Shown in pieces: positions 38,341 to 46,572 of a DNA stretch of 64,000 bases; the first letter of the stretch is position 1, and each line of letters opens with the position of its first letter. The notes below the pieces were generated by a model. It made no database searches. It was not told where the DNA came from and worked only from the letters and a program-made list of their open reading frames with translations. Both the position numbers and the translations under genes were made by a program. The DNA is from Sheuella amnicola (GTDB lineage: Bacteria > Pseudomonadota > Gammaproteobacteria > Burkholderiales > Burkholderiaceae_B), in contig NZ_JAAGRN010000006.1 in the NCBI RefSeq assembly GCF_010499255.1, positions 124,001-188,000 of the forward strand. The letters run 5' to 3'.

Positions 38341-40053
38341 TTATTCAGTGTCACGAGCCTGATCGAGCTTGGCCTTGAGCAAAGCGCCCAAATTGGTTGT
38401 GCCCGACGAAGCGCTGGCTTCGGAAAGACGTGCCATCGAATCTGCGGTCTCGGCATTGTCACGTGCCTTGATCGACAACTGGATCGAGCGCGCTTTGCGA
38501 TCGACGTTGATGATCATGGCTTCGATATTGTCACCGACCTTGATTGCAGTGGTTGCATCTTCAACGCGACCCGAAGAAATTTCGGATGCGCGCAGATAGC
38601 CTTCAACGTCCAGCGACAGGGTCACGACAGCACCCTTGGGCTCGACCGACTTGACGGTACCGGGAACAACAGCGCCCTTGTCGTAAGTGGCAACGAAGTT
38701 ATTGAACGGATCACCTTCGAGTTGCTTGACACCGAGCGAAATACGCTCTTTGTCGGTATCGATACCGAGAACGACCGCGTCGAGTTCGTCACCCTTTTTG
38801 AAGTTGCGAACGGCCTCTTCACCGGTTTCGGTCCAGGACAAGTCAGACAGATGAACCAGGCCATCGATGCCACCAGCCAAGCCGACAAACACGCCAAAGT
38901 CGGTGATCGACTTGATCGCACCACGGACTTTATCGCCACGCTTGAAGTTGGCGGCAAACTCTTCCCATGGATTCTGGCGGCACTGCTTCATGCCCAACGA
39001 AATGCGGCGACGGTCTTCGTCGATCTCGAGGACCATGACTTCGACTTCTTCACCCAAAGTCACGACCTTGCGTGGATCAACGTTCTTGTTGGTCCAGTCC
39101 ATTTCGGACACGTGAACCAAACCTTCAATACCGGCTTCGACTTCAACGAATGAACCGTAATCGGTCAGGTTGGTAACTTTACCGAACAGGCGAGTGCCCT
39201 GTGGGTAGCGACGTGCGAGACCCACCCATGGATCTTCGCCCAGTTGCTTGACGCCCAGAGAGACGCGGCTCTTCTCTTGATCGAACTTCAGAACCTTGGC
39301 TTCGACTTCCTGGCCAACCGTCAGAACTTCGGATGGATGACGTACACGGCGCCATGCCATGTCGGTGATGTGCAACAGGCCATCGATGCCGCCGAGGTCG
39401 ACGAACGCACCGTAATCGGTGATGTTCTTGACTACGCCGCGAACAACCGAACCTTCCTGCAGGTTTTCGAGCAACTTCTGGCGCTCTTCACCCATGCTGG
39501 CTTCAAGCACTGCACGACGCGACAATACGACGTTGTTGCGCTTGCGATCAAGCTTGATGACCTTGAATTCCATGGTCTTGCCTTCGAACGGGGTCGTATC
39601 CTTGACAGGACGCAAATCGACCAGCGAGCCGGGCAAGAAAGCACGGATACCGGCTGTCATGACGGTCAAACCGCCCTTGACTTTGCCTGTGATCGTGCCG
39701 GTGACGAGTTCGTTCTTTTCGAGCGACTGTTCAAGTGACAGCCAAGCCGACAAGCGCTTGGCGCGATCGCGGGACAGCACGGTGTCACCGTAGCCGTTTT
39801 CGAGCGAATCAATTGCAACCGAGACGAAATCGCCCGGCTGGACTTCAAGCTCGCCCTGATCGTTCAGGAATTCTTCGAGGGGAATGAGGGCTTCTGATTT
39901 CAGACCTGCATTCACAACCACAAAATTGTGGTCGATACGGACGACTTCGGCGGAAATAACCTCGCCGGATTTCATGTCCTGTTTTTCGATACTTTCTGCA
40001 AACAGCGCGGCAAAGCTTTCGCCGGCTTGGGTTGAAGTTTGTTGAGTTGACAT
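38341..40053 (-). CDS. rpsA: 30S ribosomal protein S1
   Basis: A 570-residue protein with six S1 (OB-fold) repeats, for example [37 protein letters not shown] and [20 protein letters not shown]1 unwinds mRNA leaders and brings mRNA to the 30S subunit. I chose the ATG at 40053 (MSTQQTSTQ), which matches the family; an in-frame ATG 20 codons upstream lies in the leader. The Shine-Dalgarno is weak, as is usual for rpsA. Its first 18 codons and leader are also present in a second copy 2,414 bp to the right. Confidence 0.97.
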
Positions 40054-40165
40054 GTAAAGAAGATCCAAATGGCTCAAAGAGCCGGGTAACACACCATCCG
40101 CCAGCAAGGACATCAGGTGGAGTTTAAAAAACCTGCATTCAAATCATTTGATTGACAGGCACCTA

Positions 40166-40828
40166 TCAAAACGACGCACGCCAGAGATCCAGTATGGCCT
40201 GAACAGTTTGATCTATGGTCAGGTTGGAAGAATCTACTGTGTGGGCGCCTTGCGCCGGAACAAGTGGTGCGACGGCACGCCGCGTATCACGCGCGTCCCG
40301 CTCACGCATATCGCGAAGCAAGTCTGCTAGATTAGCAGAAATTCCCTTTTCGATCAATTGGTTACATCTTCGCTGCGCGCGCGCCTCCGCACTGGCAACT
40401 AAGAATATTTTTAATTTCGCATCCGGAAAGACAATCGTACCCATATCACGACCATCCGCCACCAGTCCGGGAAATCGCCTGAAAGCGCGTTGCCTATCGA
40501 GCAGAGCAGCCCGCAAGGCCGGATTAGGAGCTATCCGAGAAGCCAGATTGCCGACTTGCTCCTGACGAATCAGCTCGGACACCTCTTGCCCAGCCAATCG
40601 CACGCCGTTCTGATGAAACTCGACCTGCAGGACTTGAGCGGCACCTGCAACAGCATTTGCATCGTCAGGGTCAATCTGCTGATTCAGTATCGATAACGCG
40701 GTCAGTCTGTATAGTGCTCCACTATCCAGCACACTAAATCCAAGTGCGGAGGCGACGCGGTGTGCCACCGTACCCTTGCCTGATGCAGTTGGACCATCAA
40801 TCGTAATAACCGGGGCAAGTTGCGTCAT
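40166..40828 (-). CDS. cmk: Cytidylate kinase, left copy
   Basis: A 220-residue (d)CMP kinase with P-loop [16 protein letters not shown] at the N-terminus and [13 protein letters not shown] near 130, phosphorylating CMP to CDP with ATP. The ATG at 40828 overlaps the aroA stop (ATGA). This copy lies next to the complete rpsA and is identical in protein and apparently in DNA to the second copy. In other bacteria rpsA promoters lie within cmk, so both copies may carry one. Confidence 0.95.
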
Positions 40829-42141
40829 TTGGTCAAATCCCGATACACATCGAAATATGTCGGAAAGGTTTTGCTGACGCAGTCTGGATCCATAATTCTG
40901 ACCGAAGCTGATCCAAAAGCGGCCAACGAGAAGCACATCGCCATGCGATGATCATCATATGTATCGATCACAGCGTCGTGCCACTGCCCCTTGGCAATAG
41001 GCGAAACACGAAGCCAATCCGGTCCGCTTGAAACCTCGGCTCCCAATTTACGCAATTCGGTCTGCATCGCGTGAATGCGATCAGTTTCTTTGACGCGCCA
41101 ACTTGCGATGTTGCGAAGGGTGCACGGCCCGTCGGCAAATAATGCAAGTGCTGCCGCAGTCATGGCGGCGTCAGGGATGAGGTTGAAATCCGCATCAAAA
41201 GACTTCAGTCTTTGTCCTTCAGAAACATTTATCCCAGTGACTTCGATAGATGAACCGTCGCGCTTGACCTGGGCGCCCATTGCTTCGATCGTATCGGCAA
41301 AAGCCACGTCGCCCTGGATGCTCTGATCCCCTACACCAATCACTTTTACAGGGCCACCACCGATCGCACCAAGCGCCAGGAAATACGATGCAGATGAAGC
41401 ATCTCCTTCAACGAAGATTCTCCCTGGTGATACATATCGGCTATCCGAAGCGACGATAAATTTCTGCCAGCCATGTCGTTCAACCCGCACTCCAAATCGC
41501 ATCATCAGATTCAGAGTGATGTCAATGTAGGGTTTGGAAATCAAATCGCCAACAACGTCAATCGTCAAGGCGCGCCCAGTCTTGGCCACAACGAGCGGCG
41601 CGGACATCAACACGGCAGTCAGAAACTGACTGGAGACAGAGCCCTGAACGCTGACGCGATCCATTAAGGCTTTAGCAGGACTGATTTGCAAAGGCGGATA
41701 GCCGTTTTGGCCAAGGTAATCGATCTGAGCGCCCATTTCGCGCAACCCGTCGACCAGATCACCTATCGGTCGCTCGTGCATGCGCGGCACACCGCTCAAC
41801 TTGTAATGACCACCCATGACTGTCAACGCCGCAGTCAATGGGCGAATCGCCGTGGCGGCATTGCCCATAAAAAGATCTGCCTGCTTGACAGGGAATGATT
41901 CGACTCCGCTCACCGTAACCGAATCACTGGCATGTCGTTCAATCTGAACACCCAGCGTCTGCAAAGCGGCAAGCATCACTTTTGTGTCATCCGACTGCAG
42001 CAAGCCGTCGATGCGAGTCTGTCCCGCCGCTAACGCCGAGAGTAGTAAGACGCGATTGGAAATACTTTTAGAACCCGGCAGCGTCACTGTCCCGTTTGCC
42101 CGGGTGACTGCGGGCAAGTCCAAAAATGGCACATGGCTCAT
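40825..42141 (-). CDS. aroA: EPSP synthase (3-phosphoshikimate 1-carboxyvinyltransferase), left copy
   Basis: A 438-residue shikimate-pathway enzyme condensing shikimate 3-phosphate with [21 protein letters not shown] (about 22-39), [13 protein letters not shown] (about 90) and RVKETDRI (about 340) hold substrate-binding residues; class I-like sequence. The ATG at 42141 overlaps the stop of the chimeric gene by 4 bases. It differs from the right copy at residue 4 (Val here, Leu there) and by three silent changes near the 5' end. Confidence 0.95.
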
Positions 42142-42467
42142 GACTGGTTTCCCGTCCAATTGGCGCGCGCATGCGCCGAAGTTTCGAGCATATCCATCAG
42201 CCAGGCTTCATCGCTTTCTTGCAAAGCCTGTTCAGCACGATCCAGCACCTTGCGAAAGGCTGCGATCTCGGAGAGCATCGCGGGGCGATTGGCGATGAAA
42301 ATATCACGCCACATTTCACCCGAACCCTGCGCGACACGTGTGAAATCTCGAAAACCGGTCCCGGCGGTTTGCAGCTTGGTCTCGACATCCTCGCTTTGGA
42401 TAATGTGCTGCATGAACAGTGCGGCAAAGCTTTCGCCGGCTTGGGTTGAAGTTTGTTGAGTTGACAT
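42138..42467 (-). CDS. Chimeric rpsA-tyrA gene at duplication joint
   Basis: A 109-codon in-frame fusion. Residues 1-18 ([18 protein letters not shown]) are the start of ribosomal protein S1 with the intact rpsA leader and start; residues 19-109 (from [13 protein letters not shown]) are the C-terminal part of prephenate dehydrogenase TyrA, without its NAD-binding domain. It should be translated from the rpsA signals but cannot be a dehydrogenase. It overlaps the left aroA by 4 bases, so its translation would feed aroA. It differs from the real TyrA tail by only one residue (Pro for Ser) despite nine base changes. Confidence 0.9.
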
Positions 42468-42579
42468 GTAAAGAAGATCCAAATGGCTCAAAGAGCCGGG
42501 TAACACACCATCCGCCAGCAAGGACATCAGGTGGAGTTTAAAAAACCTGCATTCAAATCATTTGATTGACAGGCACCTA

Positions 42580-43242
42580 TCAAAACGACGCACGCCAGAG
42601 ATCCAGTATGGCCTGAACAGTTTGATCTATGGTCAGGTTGGAAGAATCTACTGTGTGGGCGCCTTGCGCCGGAACAAGTGGTGCGACGGCACGCCGCGTA
42701 TCACGCGCGTCCCGCTCACGCATATCGCGAAGCAAGTCTGCTAGATTAGCAGAAATTCCCTTTTCGATCAATTGGTTACATCTTCGCTGCGCGCGCGCCT
42801 CCGCACTGGCAACTAAGAATATTTTTAATTTCGCATCCGGAAAGACAATCGTACCCATATCACGACCATCCGCCACCAGTCCGGGAAATCGCCTGAAAGC
42901 GCGTTGCCTATCGAGCAGAGCAGCCCGCAAGGCCGGATTAGGAGCTATCCGAGAAGCCAGATTGCCGACTTGCTCCTGACGAATCAGCTCGGACACCTCT
43001 TGCCCAGCCAATCGCACGCCGTTCTGATGAAACTCGACCTGCAGGACTTGAGCGGCACCTGCAACAGCATTTGCATCGTCAGGGTCAATCTGCTGATTCA
43101 GTATCGATAACGCGGTCAGTCTGTATAGTGCTCCACTATCCAGCACACTAAATCCAAGTGCGGAGGCGACGCGGTGTGCCACCGTACCCTTGCCTGATGC
43201 AGTTGGACCATCAATCGTAATAACCGGGGCAAGTTGCGTCAT
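42580..43242 (-). CDS. cmk: Cytidylate kinase, right copy
   Basis: A complete second cytidylate kinase gene of 220 codons, same start context (ATGA overlap with aroA) and same protein as the copy at 40166-40828, including the P-loop GPTASGKGT. It is followed leftward by an rpsA leader that leads into the chimeric gene rather than into rpsA. Both copies look functional, so CMP kinase dosage may be doubled. Confidence 0.95.
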
Positions 43243-44555
43243 TTGGTCAAATCCCGATACACATCGAAATATGTCGGAAAGGTTTTGCTGACGCAGTCTG
43301 GATCCATAATTCTGACCGAAGCTGATCCAAAAGCGGCCAACGAGAAGCACATCGCCATGCGATGATCATCATATGTATCGATCACAGCGTCGTGCCACTG
43401 CCCCTTGGCAATAGGCGAAACACGAAGCCAATCCGGTCCGCTTGAAACCTCGGCTCCCAATTTACGCAATTCGGTCTGCATCGCGTGAATGCGATCAGTT
43501 TCTTTGACGCGCCAACTTGCGATGTTGCGAAGGGTGCACGGCCCGTCGGCAAATAATGCAAGTGCTGCCGCAGTCATGGCGGCGTCAGGGATGAGGTTGA
43601 AATCCGCATCAAAAGACTTCAGTCTTTGTCCTTCAGAAACATTTATCCCAGTGACTTCGATAGATGAACCGTCGCGCTTGACCTGGGCGCCCATTGCTTC
43701 GATCGTATCGGCAAAAGCCACGTCGCCCTGGATGCTCTGATCCCCTACACCAATCACTTTTACAGGGCCACCACCGATCGCACCAAGCGCCAGGAAATAC
43801 GATGCAGATGAAGCATCTCCTTCAACGAAGATTCTCCCTGGTGATACATATCGGCTATCCGAAGCGACGATAAATTTCTGCCAGCCATGTCGTTCAACCC
43901 GCACTCCAAATCGCATCATCAGATTCAGAGTGATGTCAATGTAGGGTTTGGAAATCAAATCGCCAACAACGTCAATCGTCAAGGCGCGCCCAGTCTTGGC
44001 CACAACGAGCGGCGCGGACATCAACACGGCAGTCAGAAACTGACTGGAGACAGAGCCCTGAACGCTGACGCGATCCATTAAGGCTTTAGCAGGACTGATT
44101 TGCAAAGGCGGATAGCCGTTTTGGCCAAGGTAATCGATCTGAGCGCCCATTTCGCGCAACCCGTCGACCAGATCACCTATCGGTCGCTCGTGCATGCGCG
44201 GCACACCGCTCAACTTGTAATGACCACCCATGACTGTCAACGCCGCAGTCAATGGGCGAATCGCCGTGGCGGCATTGCCCATAAAAAGATCTGCCTGCTT
44301 GACAGGGAATGATTCGACTCCGCTCACCGTAACCGAATCACTGGCATGTCGTTCAATCTGAACACCCAGCGTCTGCAAAGCGGCAAGCATCACTTTTGTG
44401 TCATCCGACTGCAGCAAGCCGTCGATGCGAGTCTGTCCCGCCGCTAACGCCGAGAGTAGCAAGACGCGATTGGAAATACTTTTAGAACCCGGCAGCGTCA
44501 CCGTCCCGTTAGCCCGGGTGACTGCGGGCAAGTCCAAAAATGGCAGATGGCTCAT
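43239..44555 (-). CDS. aroA: EPSP synthase, right copy
   Basis: The copy of aroA that follows the intact tyrA (ATGA overlap), and so keeps the ancestral operon position. It is 438 residues with the same active-site motifs as the left copy ([22 protein letters not shown]). The only protein difference is Leu at residue 4. Having two intact aroA genes is unusual and would raise EPSP synthase dosage. Confidence 0.95.
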
Positions 44556-45445
44556 GACTGGTTTCCCGTCCAATTGGCACGCGCATGCGCCGAAGTTTCG
44601 AGCATATCCATCAGCCAGGCTTCATCGCTTTCTTGCAAAGCCTGTTCGGCACGATCCAGCACCTTGCGAAAGGCTGCGATCTCGGAGAGCATCGCCGAGC
44701 GATTGGCGATGAAAATATCACGCCACATTTCACCCGAGCCTTGCGCGACACGCGTGAAATCTCGAAAACCGGTCCCGGCGGTTTGCAGCTTGGTCTCGAC
44801 ATCTTCGCTCTGGATAATGTGCTGCATGAACAGTGCGGCAATCCAGTGGGGCATATGACTGACGGCAGCTACCGCTTTGTCATGCTGGGCAGGCTCAAGT
44901 GAGACAACTTTGGCTCCGCAACCTTGCCAGATGTTTCTGATCAATTCGACGCTTTTGGAGTCATTTTCAGGCAAAGGGGTCAAGATCACGCGCCGCCCCT
45001 TATATAAATTGGCATCTGCTGCTTGCGGCCCCTTTTCATGCGATCCTGCCATAGGATGCGAGGGAACAAACTGACCAATGCGATCCTTCAATCCCAGCCG
45101 CGCGGCATCGACAACATTTTGTTTAGTGCTGCCGCCATCGGTCAATAAACTGCCGGCCTTCAACCAAGGGGCAAGTTCGCTGAAAATTGTCGCAAAAGCG
45201 CCAACGGGAGCTGCGATGAAAATCAGATCAGCTCGCTCGGCAGCCTCTTTCAAACTCACTGCCTCGTCGATCAATCCAAGTTCTACAGCAGTAGCCAGGG
45301 TTTCGGGACGACGTCCCGCGCCCAGAATGCGCTTGACCAGACCCGCCTCGCGGCAAGCCGCAGCAAATGAACCACCGATCAACCCAACGCCGACAATGGC
45401 TAATGTGTCGACATGTGCGATGGGGCGTTGGGACTGCGCGCTCAT
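44552..45445 (-). CDS. tyrA: Prephenate dehydrogenase
   Basis: A 297-residue NAD(P)-dependent enzyme of tyrosine synthesis, oxidatively decarboxylating prephenate (or arogenate). The nucleotide-binding start is [21 protein letters not shown] and the catalytic His region [14 protein letters not shown] is present. It is monofunctional, with no chorismate mutase domain. It overlaps hisC and aroA by 4 bases each. Its last 91 codons are duplicated in the chimeric gene downstream. Confidence 0.94.
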
Positions 45446-46572
45446 TTATGAGACGTTTTCAAAATTGCAGTCAACGCATCGATGAATTTCTGATTTTCCT
45501 CAGGCAATCCGATCGATACACGCAACCACTCAGGCAATCCGTCGCCTGCAACAGGACGCACGATCACGCCACGCTTGAGCAATTCGAGATTGATGCGAGC
45601 GGCATCACCCACATGCACCAAAACGAAATTCGCAAAGCTAGGCACAAACTTCAGGCCTAATTGAGTGAAGGCATTCTGCAATTGTTTTTTGCCGTCGCGA
45701 TTCACCGCAAAACTGCGTGCAAGAAAATCCTGATCTTTCAAAGCTGCAATCGCAGCTGCCTGAGCCAAAGAGTTCACGTTAAAAGGCTGACGCACACGAT
45801 TAAGCAAGTCGGTCAGTACCGGCTGGGCAACGGCAAAACCCACACGCAAACCGGCTAGTCCATATGCCTTCGAAAATGAACGTGACACCAACAGATTCGG
45901 ATATTTTTTGACAAGTCCGATGCTATCGACACGCAGTTCAGGTTCGAGAAATTCGTTGTATGCCTCATCCAGAACAACCGTCACTCGTGTGCCATGACGC
46001 TTGGCAACCTCTGCCAAAAATGACTCGAGTGCTGCATTGGACAAGTAAGTACCGGTGGGATTGTTCGGATTCGCGATAAAGACCAGGCGAGTTGTATCAT
46101 CAATCGCTTCAAGCATCGCCGAAAGGTCATGACCATACTCGCGAGCCGGCACAACAATATGGCGGGCGCCACGCGCCTGAGTCGACAACTTGTAGACAAC
46201 AAAAGCATGCTGCGAATACACGCAGGAAGTACCCGGTTCGAGCAAGGCCATCGCGACAAGCTCGAGAATATCGTTTGAACCGTTACCCAATGTCAACCAG
46301 GATTGAGGGACGTCATAGCGATCCGATAAAGCCTGCTTCAGTTCAAAGCCGGCAGGATCGGGATAGCGGCCTAAACCATTAATCGCCGCAGTCACCGCCT
46401 TTTGAGCAGAGGGTGGCATCCCAAGCGGATTCTCATTCGAAGCAAGCTTCACGATTTCAGCGGGATCGATACCGAACTCGCGCGCCAGCTCCTCGATGGG
46501 CTTGCCCGCCTGATACGGAGCGATAGCGGAGATGTGCGAGGGCGCGACTAGGGCCGAATGATTTGATGACAT
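45442..46572 (-). CDS. hisC: Histidinol-phosphate/aromatic aminotransferase
   Basis: A 376-residue PLP aminotransferase of the HisC family. The PLP Lys is in SRSFSKAYGLAGLRVGFA (about 230), with FIANPNNPTGTYL and VLDEAYNEF upstream. Set between pheA and tyrA it probably acts in aromatic amino acid transamination (a HisC2 role) as well as or instead of histidine synthesis; this is inference from position. Overlaps tyrA by 4 bases. Confidence 0.93.
   Translation of the reverse strand: MSSNHSALVAPSHISAIAPYQAGKPIEELAREFGIDPAEIVKLASNENPLGMPPSAQKAVTAAINGLGRYPDPAGFELKQALSDRYDVPQSWLTLGNGSNDILELVAMALLEPGTSCVYSQHAFVVYKLSTQARGARHIVVPAREYGHDLSAMLEAIDDTTRLVFIANPNNPTGTYLSNAALESFLAEVAKRHGTRVTVVLDEAYNEFLEPELRVDSIGLVKKYPNLLVSRSFSKAYGLAGLRVGFAVAQPVLTDLLNRVRQPFNVNSLAQAAAIAALKDQDFLARSFAVNRDGKKQLQNAFTQLGLKFVPSFANFVLVHVGDAARINLELLKRGVIVRPVAGDGLPEWLRVSIGLPEENQKFIDALTAILKTSHK

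Follow-up and report, generated by a model that had tools for sequence, protein, structure and literature searches.

The window considered here is a stretch of 64,000 nucleotides from Sheuella amnicola (positions 124,001 to 188,000 of contig NZ_JAAGRN010000006.1, assembly GCF_010499255.1), and the host material looks like an isolate of a betaproteobacterium. Within the window, a segment carrying aroA, the gene for 5-enolpyruvylshikimate-3-phosphate (EPSP) synthase, the target of the herbicide glyphosate, and cmk, the gene for (d)CMP kinase, occurs in two adjacent direct copies. Read along the minus strand, the genes stand in the order hisC, tyrA, aroA copy 2, cmk copy 2, a fusion of the start of rpsA to the end of tyrA, aroA copy 1, cmk copy 1, and rpsA. 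The repeat units and intact genes are these:

38341..40053, minus strand: intact rpsA, ribosomal protein S1 (open reading frame, NCBIfam)
40007..42427, minus strand: repeat copy 1, proximal to rpsA, with the rpsA start and leader, cmk, aroA and about the last 95 codons of tyrA (self-comparison)
40166..40828, minus strand: cmk copy 1, (d)CMP kinase (open reading frame, NCBIfam)
40825..42141, minus strand: aroA copy 1, EPSP synthase with Ala96 (open reading frame, motif, NCBIfam)
42421..44841, minus strand: repeat copy 2, proximal to tyrA (self-comparison)
42580..43242, minus strand: cmk copy 2, (d)CMP kinase (open reading frame, NCBIfam)
43239..44555, minus strand: aroA copy 2, EPSP synthase with Ala96 (open reading frame, motif, NCBIfam, alignments)
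44552..45445, minus strand: intact tyrA, prephenate dehydrogenase-like (open reading frame; below the cut-off of every matching NCBIfam model)

Comparison of the window with itself finds the two copies at a constant offset of 2,414 (40007-42427 and 42421-44841), so that the span 40007-44834 is exactly two 2,414-bp units. A separate blastn run gives the pair as a match of 2,447 bp at 99.2%, and at E 1e-6 it is the sole pair in the window. The original prediction, made from the letters of the sequence, had described two such copies over 40007..44834, each carrying cmk, aroA, the rpsA leader and the end of tyrA, and both methods bear it out. It had also held both copies of each gene to be intact, and they are: each unit has an aroA of 438 amino acids (starting at the ATG in overlap with the tyrA stop codon) and a cmk of 220, the two aroA scoring 455.2 bits against the cut-off of 287.25 for NCBIfam TIGR01356, and the two cmk lying above the cut-off of TIGR00017. 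The assembly therefore supports the claim that two EPSP synthases and two CMP kinases are encoded, and the extra intact copy expected of target-gene amplification is present. rpsA too lies above its NCBIfam cut-off, while prephenate dehydrogenase models match nearly the whole length of tyrA with scores below theirs. A third PF00275 gene lies on contig C2, away from the repeat; it is probably murA. The G+C content of the sampled contigs is 49.5-51.7%.

What sets this aroA apart, besides its number, is one residue. Both AroA copies carry alanine at the position of E. coli residue 96, in a motif found here:

41840..41865 (G000:C6:165840-165865, G000 being this genome), minus strand: GNAATAIRP motif of copy 1 (motif pattern)
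44254..44279 (G000:C6:168254-168279), minus strand: GNAATAIRP motif of copy 2 (motif pattern)

The residue aligns with residue 96 of both 1mi4 (Ala) and 1g6s (Gly), and the match to 1mi4 scores the higher (426.4 versus 424.6 bits). The protein is overall of the E. coli type, for the 424.6 bits to 1g6s (E 3e-126) compare with 98.8 bits (E 3e-27) to 2gg4. Class I enzymes, however, have Gly at position 96, which neither copy has. Judged by its sequence, AroA is thus an EPSP synthase of the E. coli type that is not a standard sensitive class I enzyme. Site 96 is Gly in all of 106 aligned relatives (distinct sequences from loci L005-L113, after removal of repeats and of matches with less than 85% coverage). 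In this comparison AroA departs from its relatives at just 2 of the 151 columns conserved at >=98%, residues 96 and 107, and the second carries little meaning, because the aligned site is Cys in E. coli. Cmk departs at none of 61 conserved columns and TyrA at none of 52.

A wider search by pattern gives the same picture. The motif GNA(G/A)TA.RP is held by 211 of 268 genomes of the family, of which this one alone holds it twice, and the Gly form stands in every family match among those listed. Across the 399 genomes sampled from the order, the Ala form occurs in an aroA only here, and the Gly form was found in 94 of 150; the pattern sees aroA in only about two thirds of order genomes, and Ala is possible in the genomes missed, in the family as in the order. 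One apparent second case, an Ala motif in G414, was dropped from the count, as AroA is missing from its locus (L135), where tblastn gives a stretch of 12 amino acids at best (E 0.06). That locus (G414:C16) holds a chance DNA match of the GNAATA.RP type outside aroA, beside an ABC-transporter-like permease frame.

The same substitution has been characterized in E. coli AroA, where G96A changes the glyphosate inhibition constant (Ki) from 1.4 to 219.3 µM, the half-inhibitory concentration (IC50) from 0.05 to 0.22 mM, the Km for phosphoenolpyruvate (PEP) from 65.8 to 119.5 µM and the specific activity from 41.1 to 71.4 U/mg (values of Table 1 in PMC3411725). By analogy, Ala96 should weaken the binding of glyphosate and, more mildly, that of PEP.

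The two copies are identical over most of their length. From 40007 to 42045 (2,039 bp) there is no difference between them, and all differences fall into one tract:

42046..42427, no strand: tract holding all 13 differences between the copies, 11 of them at third codon positions (self-comparison)

Were the 13 spread evenly, such clustering in 382 bp would have a chance of about 4e-11, and without constraint at least 11 third-position differences would have a P of 2e-4. The AroA copies differ at one residue (Leu/Val at residue 4 from the ATG, codon 10 of the TTG frame), and the TyrA part has a Ser/Pro difference at residue 250. At most 2 of the 9 differences in the tyrA fragment are non-synonymous, against 74% expected without selection (P 0.0017). 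The third-position excess and the low non-synonymous share speak against decay of the fragment after duplication, an idea that was considered and set aside; rather, both alleles seem to have been functional and under selection as they diverged. Since such constraint is unlikely in a TyrA fragment that does not work, either an allele from another strain is involved or strains have been mixed in the assembly. Comparison of the 13 sites with 28 relatives in the genus gives a mixed result (143 matches to the alleles of copy 2, 97 to those of copy 1), so neither allele can be named the native one.

At the junction of the two units, the start of rpsA meets the end of tyrA:

40054..40165, minus strand: leader of intact rpsA, including a hairpin conserved in the genus (sequence)
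42138..42467, minus strand: fusion frame, RpsA residues 1-18 followed by the TyrA C-terminus, with an ATGA overlap with aroA copy 1 at its end (open reading frame from the rpsA ATG)
42421..42427, no strand: joint, an exact 7-bp word (plus strand GCGGCAA) present in both rpsA and tyrA (42415-42427 has 12 matches in 13 bp)
42468..42579, minus strand: duplicated cmk-rpsA intergenic leader, preceding both the fusion frame and aroA copy 1 (sequence)

Here AACAGCGCGGCAA of rpsA (40001-40013) meets AACAGTGCGGCAA of tyrA; the match is exact over GCGGCAA, and at the one mismatch the joint carries the tyrA letter. Against the NCBIfam prephenate dehydrogenase models, the fusion frame gives a match to their C-terminal part only, and the ATGA overlap with aroA is the same at its end as at the end of intact tyrA. 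Because the rpsA start is joined in frame to the tyrA end, the second aroA-cmk pair sits behind an rpsA leader, although by chance alone one joint in three would be in frame.

The leader itself (40054-40165, and again 42468-42579) has a small G+C-rich hairpin immediately before the start codon. Counting the one here, 25 distinct sequences from the genus can form the hairpin, with GGCTC/GAGCC in this genome and mostly GGCC, or GGCT with GGCC, in the others; it may be the site of S1 autoregulation. No Rfam family reaches threshold on the leader, the one match being far below it.

The original prediction had pointed to related genomes as a place to look for the same joint. A tyrA-aroA-cmk query matches all 32 genomes of the genus, but two overlapping places of full-length type occur only in this genome (G011, G016, G021 and G027 also have second match rows, which fall on different parts of the query), and the duplication was not seen in the 31 others, which are distant, at 66-71% DNA identity. 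Of 109 related loci, 108 have coverage of about one aroA copy and 1 of half a copy (rounded), although single copies in relatives rest on draft assemblies, which could collapse a repeat. Among the matches listed, tyrA, cmk and rpsA keep the same order in the loci holding all three. A megablast search for plasmid copies of the repeat gave no match, and titles and abstract openings in the literature disclosed no natural tandem duplication of aroA and cmk.

Taken together, these observations are best read as a real, recent tandem duplication that raises the dosage of a less inhibitor-sensitive EPSP synthase, a reading we favor by a modest measure, selection being the part of it that we infer. On the most economical account, the duplication would have arisen when sister chromosomes underwent illegitimate exchange at the 7-bp word. 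One tyrA-end allele of the two would have given way to DNA of a related strain, whether in that very event, with a donor strand bridging the joint, or later, by ordinary allelic replacement; that a foreign allele is involved is probable. The genome has the competence-type gene comEC, as do 10 of 14 control genomes, so its presence says little: it permits DNA uptake and is no proof of it. Once in place, the duplicate would raise the level of EPSP synthase (and of CMP kinase) by copy number, and perhaps further if the second aroA-cmk pair is expressed from behind the rpsA leader, with the ATGA overlap coupling it to the in-frame RpsA-TyrA fusion. The extra enzyme would offset the cost of Ala96 and add tolerance, so that a less sensitive enzyme made in larger amount would form a coherent pair. 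Retention of the duplicate for EPSP-synthase dosage is a plausible proposal, if one that falls a little short of being probable. In a fuller version, a natural bacterium would have gained tolerance to an EPSP-synthase inhibitor through three changes stacked at one locus: Ala96 in the enzyme, tandem amplification (possibly to more than two units), and capture of the S1 leader through an in-frame fusion that couples translation into the second aroA; this we offer only tentatively, as an extension less likely than not. The original prediction had guessed at inhibitor tolerance as an advantage, and here it gains independent support from Ala96 in both copies and from published precedents, while the dosage and selection it spoke of stay at the level of inference. 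The inhibitor, if there is one, may be glyphosate or a natural compound.

Several considerations weigh against the dosage reading. In the tabulated kinetics (PMC3411725), G96A raises the IC50 only about fourfold and the Km for PEP less than twofold, with a higher specific activity, and with so mild a penalty the cost that extra dosage could offset may be small. Ala96 was noticed after the fact, a match of this kind to a known tolerance site being estimated at about 1 in 100. The C-P lyase protein PhnJ was not found in the genome, nothing else met with in this analysis points to glyphosate, and in lake mesocosms EPSP synthase class explained only 2% of genome abundance after herbicide (PMC9040730). 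A foreign allele within a young duplication requires a second or an unusual event. Finally, promoter capture is unproved: a scan for sigma-70-like promoters found none in either leader copy, and 1 site in 39900-45500 against 3.7 expected by chance.

The strongest competitor is a duplication that is real but neutral or transient, caught in the sequenced culture, with Ala96 an unrelated trait of the lineage. Tandem duplications arise often. The 2,039 bp without a difference mean that this one is young or has been kept alike, and its absence from the 31 other genomes of the genus and the lack of PhnJ also speak for this explanation. What this explanation leaves to coincidence is that the only genome with two motif matches among the 211 of its family with the motif is also the only one of the 399 in its order with an Ala-form aroA by pattern, two rare traits on one gene. 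We regard it as possible but distinctly less likely than the reading favored above.

A second competitor is that the tandem copy is false, produced because a pair of strains or else a chimeric fragment entered the assembly. With most of them synonymous, the 13 differences do resemble variation between strains, the 2,039 identical bases would follow if the assembler had drawn twice on one shared stretch, and the exact match at the joint is just 7 bp. The assembly, however, has the marks of a single culture. Among the 40 ends of its 20 readable contigs there are 10 distinct exact overlaps, seven of 127 bp and one each of 126, 124 and 123 bp, all at two repeat contigs, C17, which carries a 16S primer site, and C20. 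Contigs of 253-255 bp (letters N) were retained, and completeness is 98.65 with contamination 0.34. End overlaps and short contigs of this kind are what a de Bruijn assembly of one culture at k=127 yields, and the assembly looks like one, and not like a bin. Moreover, no second repeat pair of like identity and length occurs in the 839,323 bp examined (window included; 26% of the 3,184,133-bp genome).

The path through the repeat argues in the same direction. Between the two repeat runs lie 501 single-copy 127-mers, the joint included. In a graph of that kind the 2,039-bp stretch is a single edge, so a contig can pass it twice only through a loop formed by the differing tract and the joint, and the joint, far shorter than k, is expected to have reads behind it, barring a gap-joining step in the assembler. 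Sequence does not dictate how many times the loop is travelled, so a copy number above two is possible; two is the count of units drawn by the assembler and not a measured number. An artefact of strain mixture in a metagenome bin had been considered first, since metagenome-assembled genomes are the source of the four named loci that lie closest (L034-L037, of 80) and the differences are strain-like; it was lowered by the overlaps, the retained short contigs and the single-copy 127-mers. A search of literature listings gained no precedents for false duplication in metagenome assemblies. The original prediction had named assembly error as what could undo it, a worry that this structure reduces without removing. 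Error is unlikely, and the duplication is very probably real.

Alternatively, the duplication might be old, with gene conversion keeping the copies alike everywhere except at the tyrA-side end, which escaped. Divergence at one end and identity elsewhere would suit this, but at the opposite end identity reaches the joint, which would make the escape one-sided; the TyrA fragment has no relaxed constraint; and the arrangement is not seen in the 31 relatives, distant as they are. We consider it very unlikely. Least probable of all is selection for CMP kinase or the fusion frame instead of AroA: cmk is duplicated too, and cmk mutations are selected in ageing E. coli colonies, but according to the same account (PMC8497467) the commonest of them lowers Cmk activity and several are stop codons, the opposite of more dosage, and it is AroA, at residue 96, and not Cmk that departs from conserved columns.

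Other repeats were met elsewhere in the genome. Contig C20 (G000:C20; L173, L208), of 3,025 bp with a 580-amino-acid frame, overlaps five contig ends by 126-127 bp and resembles a repeated insertion sequence. Within 20 kb at G000:C2:14670-33059 lie several stretches that are related to one another at 64-75%, probably a paralogous gene family. A 43-bp exact direct repeat occurs at G000:C2:105647-105689 and 106424-106466, 777 bp apart.

The observation is confirmed and extended, its interpretation is partly supported, and the functionally suggestive arrangement is probably real. If the dosage reading is true, a natural genome that combines both routes on one gene would offer a datable case of adaptation in an essential gene of the aromatic pathway, and would allow one to test directly whether residues of inhibitors exert selection on bacteria. 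It would also mean that exchange at a 7-bp word can place a biosynthetic gene behind the signals of a ribosomal protein.

A known mechanism that comes close is homology-facilitated illegitimate recombination, in which a shared word of 3-10 bp stands at the joint and a switch of alleles on the other side (PMC3240628). Here the word is 7 bp, exact; the tract of differences between the copies, a candidate donor tract, ends at 42046. The usual product of that process is an insertion with a deletion, although duplications by single crossing-over of shortened circles were also seen (same source). The present case is a duplication with both flanking genes intact; with no deletion beside the unit, we do not file it under that process. 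The circle route is disfavored as well, since a foreign circle should bring differences along the whole unit, a pattern not seen here.

With respect to tolerance, change of the target site and amplification of the target are both already known for glyphosate, in E. coli and in weeds. E. coli came to grow at 10 mM glyphosate by a substitution in aroA, by a promoter-up change or by selective amplification of the gene (Wicke 2019, as cited in PMC10667639). The extra EPSP synthase gene copies of E. coli and of Amaranthus palmeri (Gaines 2010, cited in the same text) resemble those described here, and the substituted E. coli enzyme is a parallel route. The present genome differs in coming from outside a selection experiment or a weed, in having both routes at one locus, in a unit that holds cmk and the rpsA leader as well, and in that any tolerance is a prediction from sequence. 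The G96A EPSP synthase of E. coli (PDB 1mi4; PMC3411725) has Ala at residue 96 of the same motif; here it occurs naturally, and other residues differ, so that the kinetics are not transferable. The enzymes 2gg4 and 2gga, which we take to be class II (CP4-type) EPSP synthases, have Ala at the matching position of the PEP-site loop, but the AroA of this genome, in overall sequence, is of the E. coli type.

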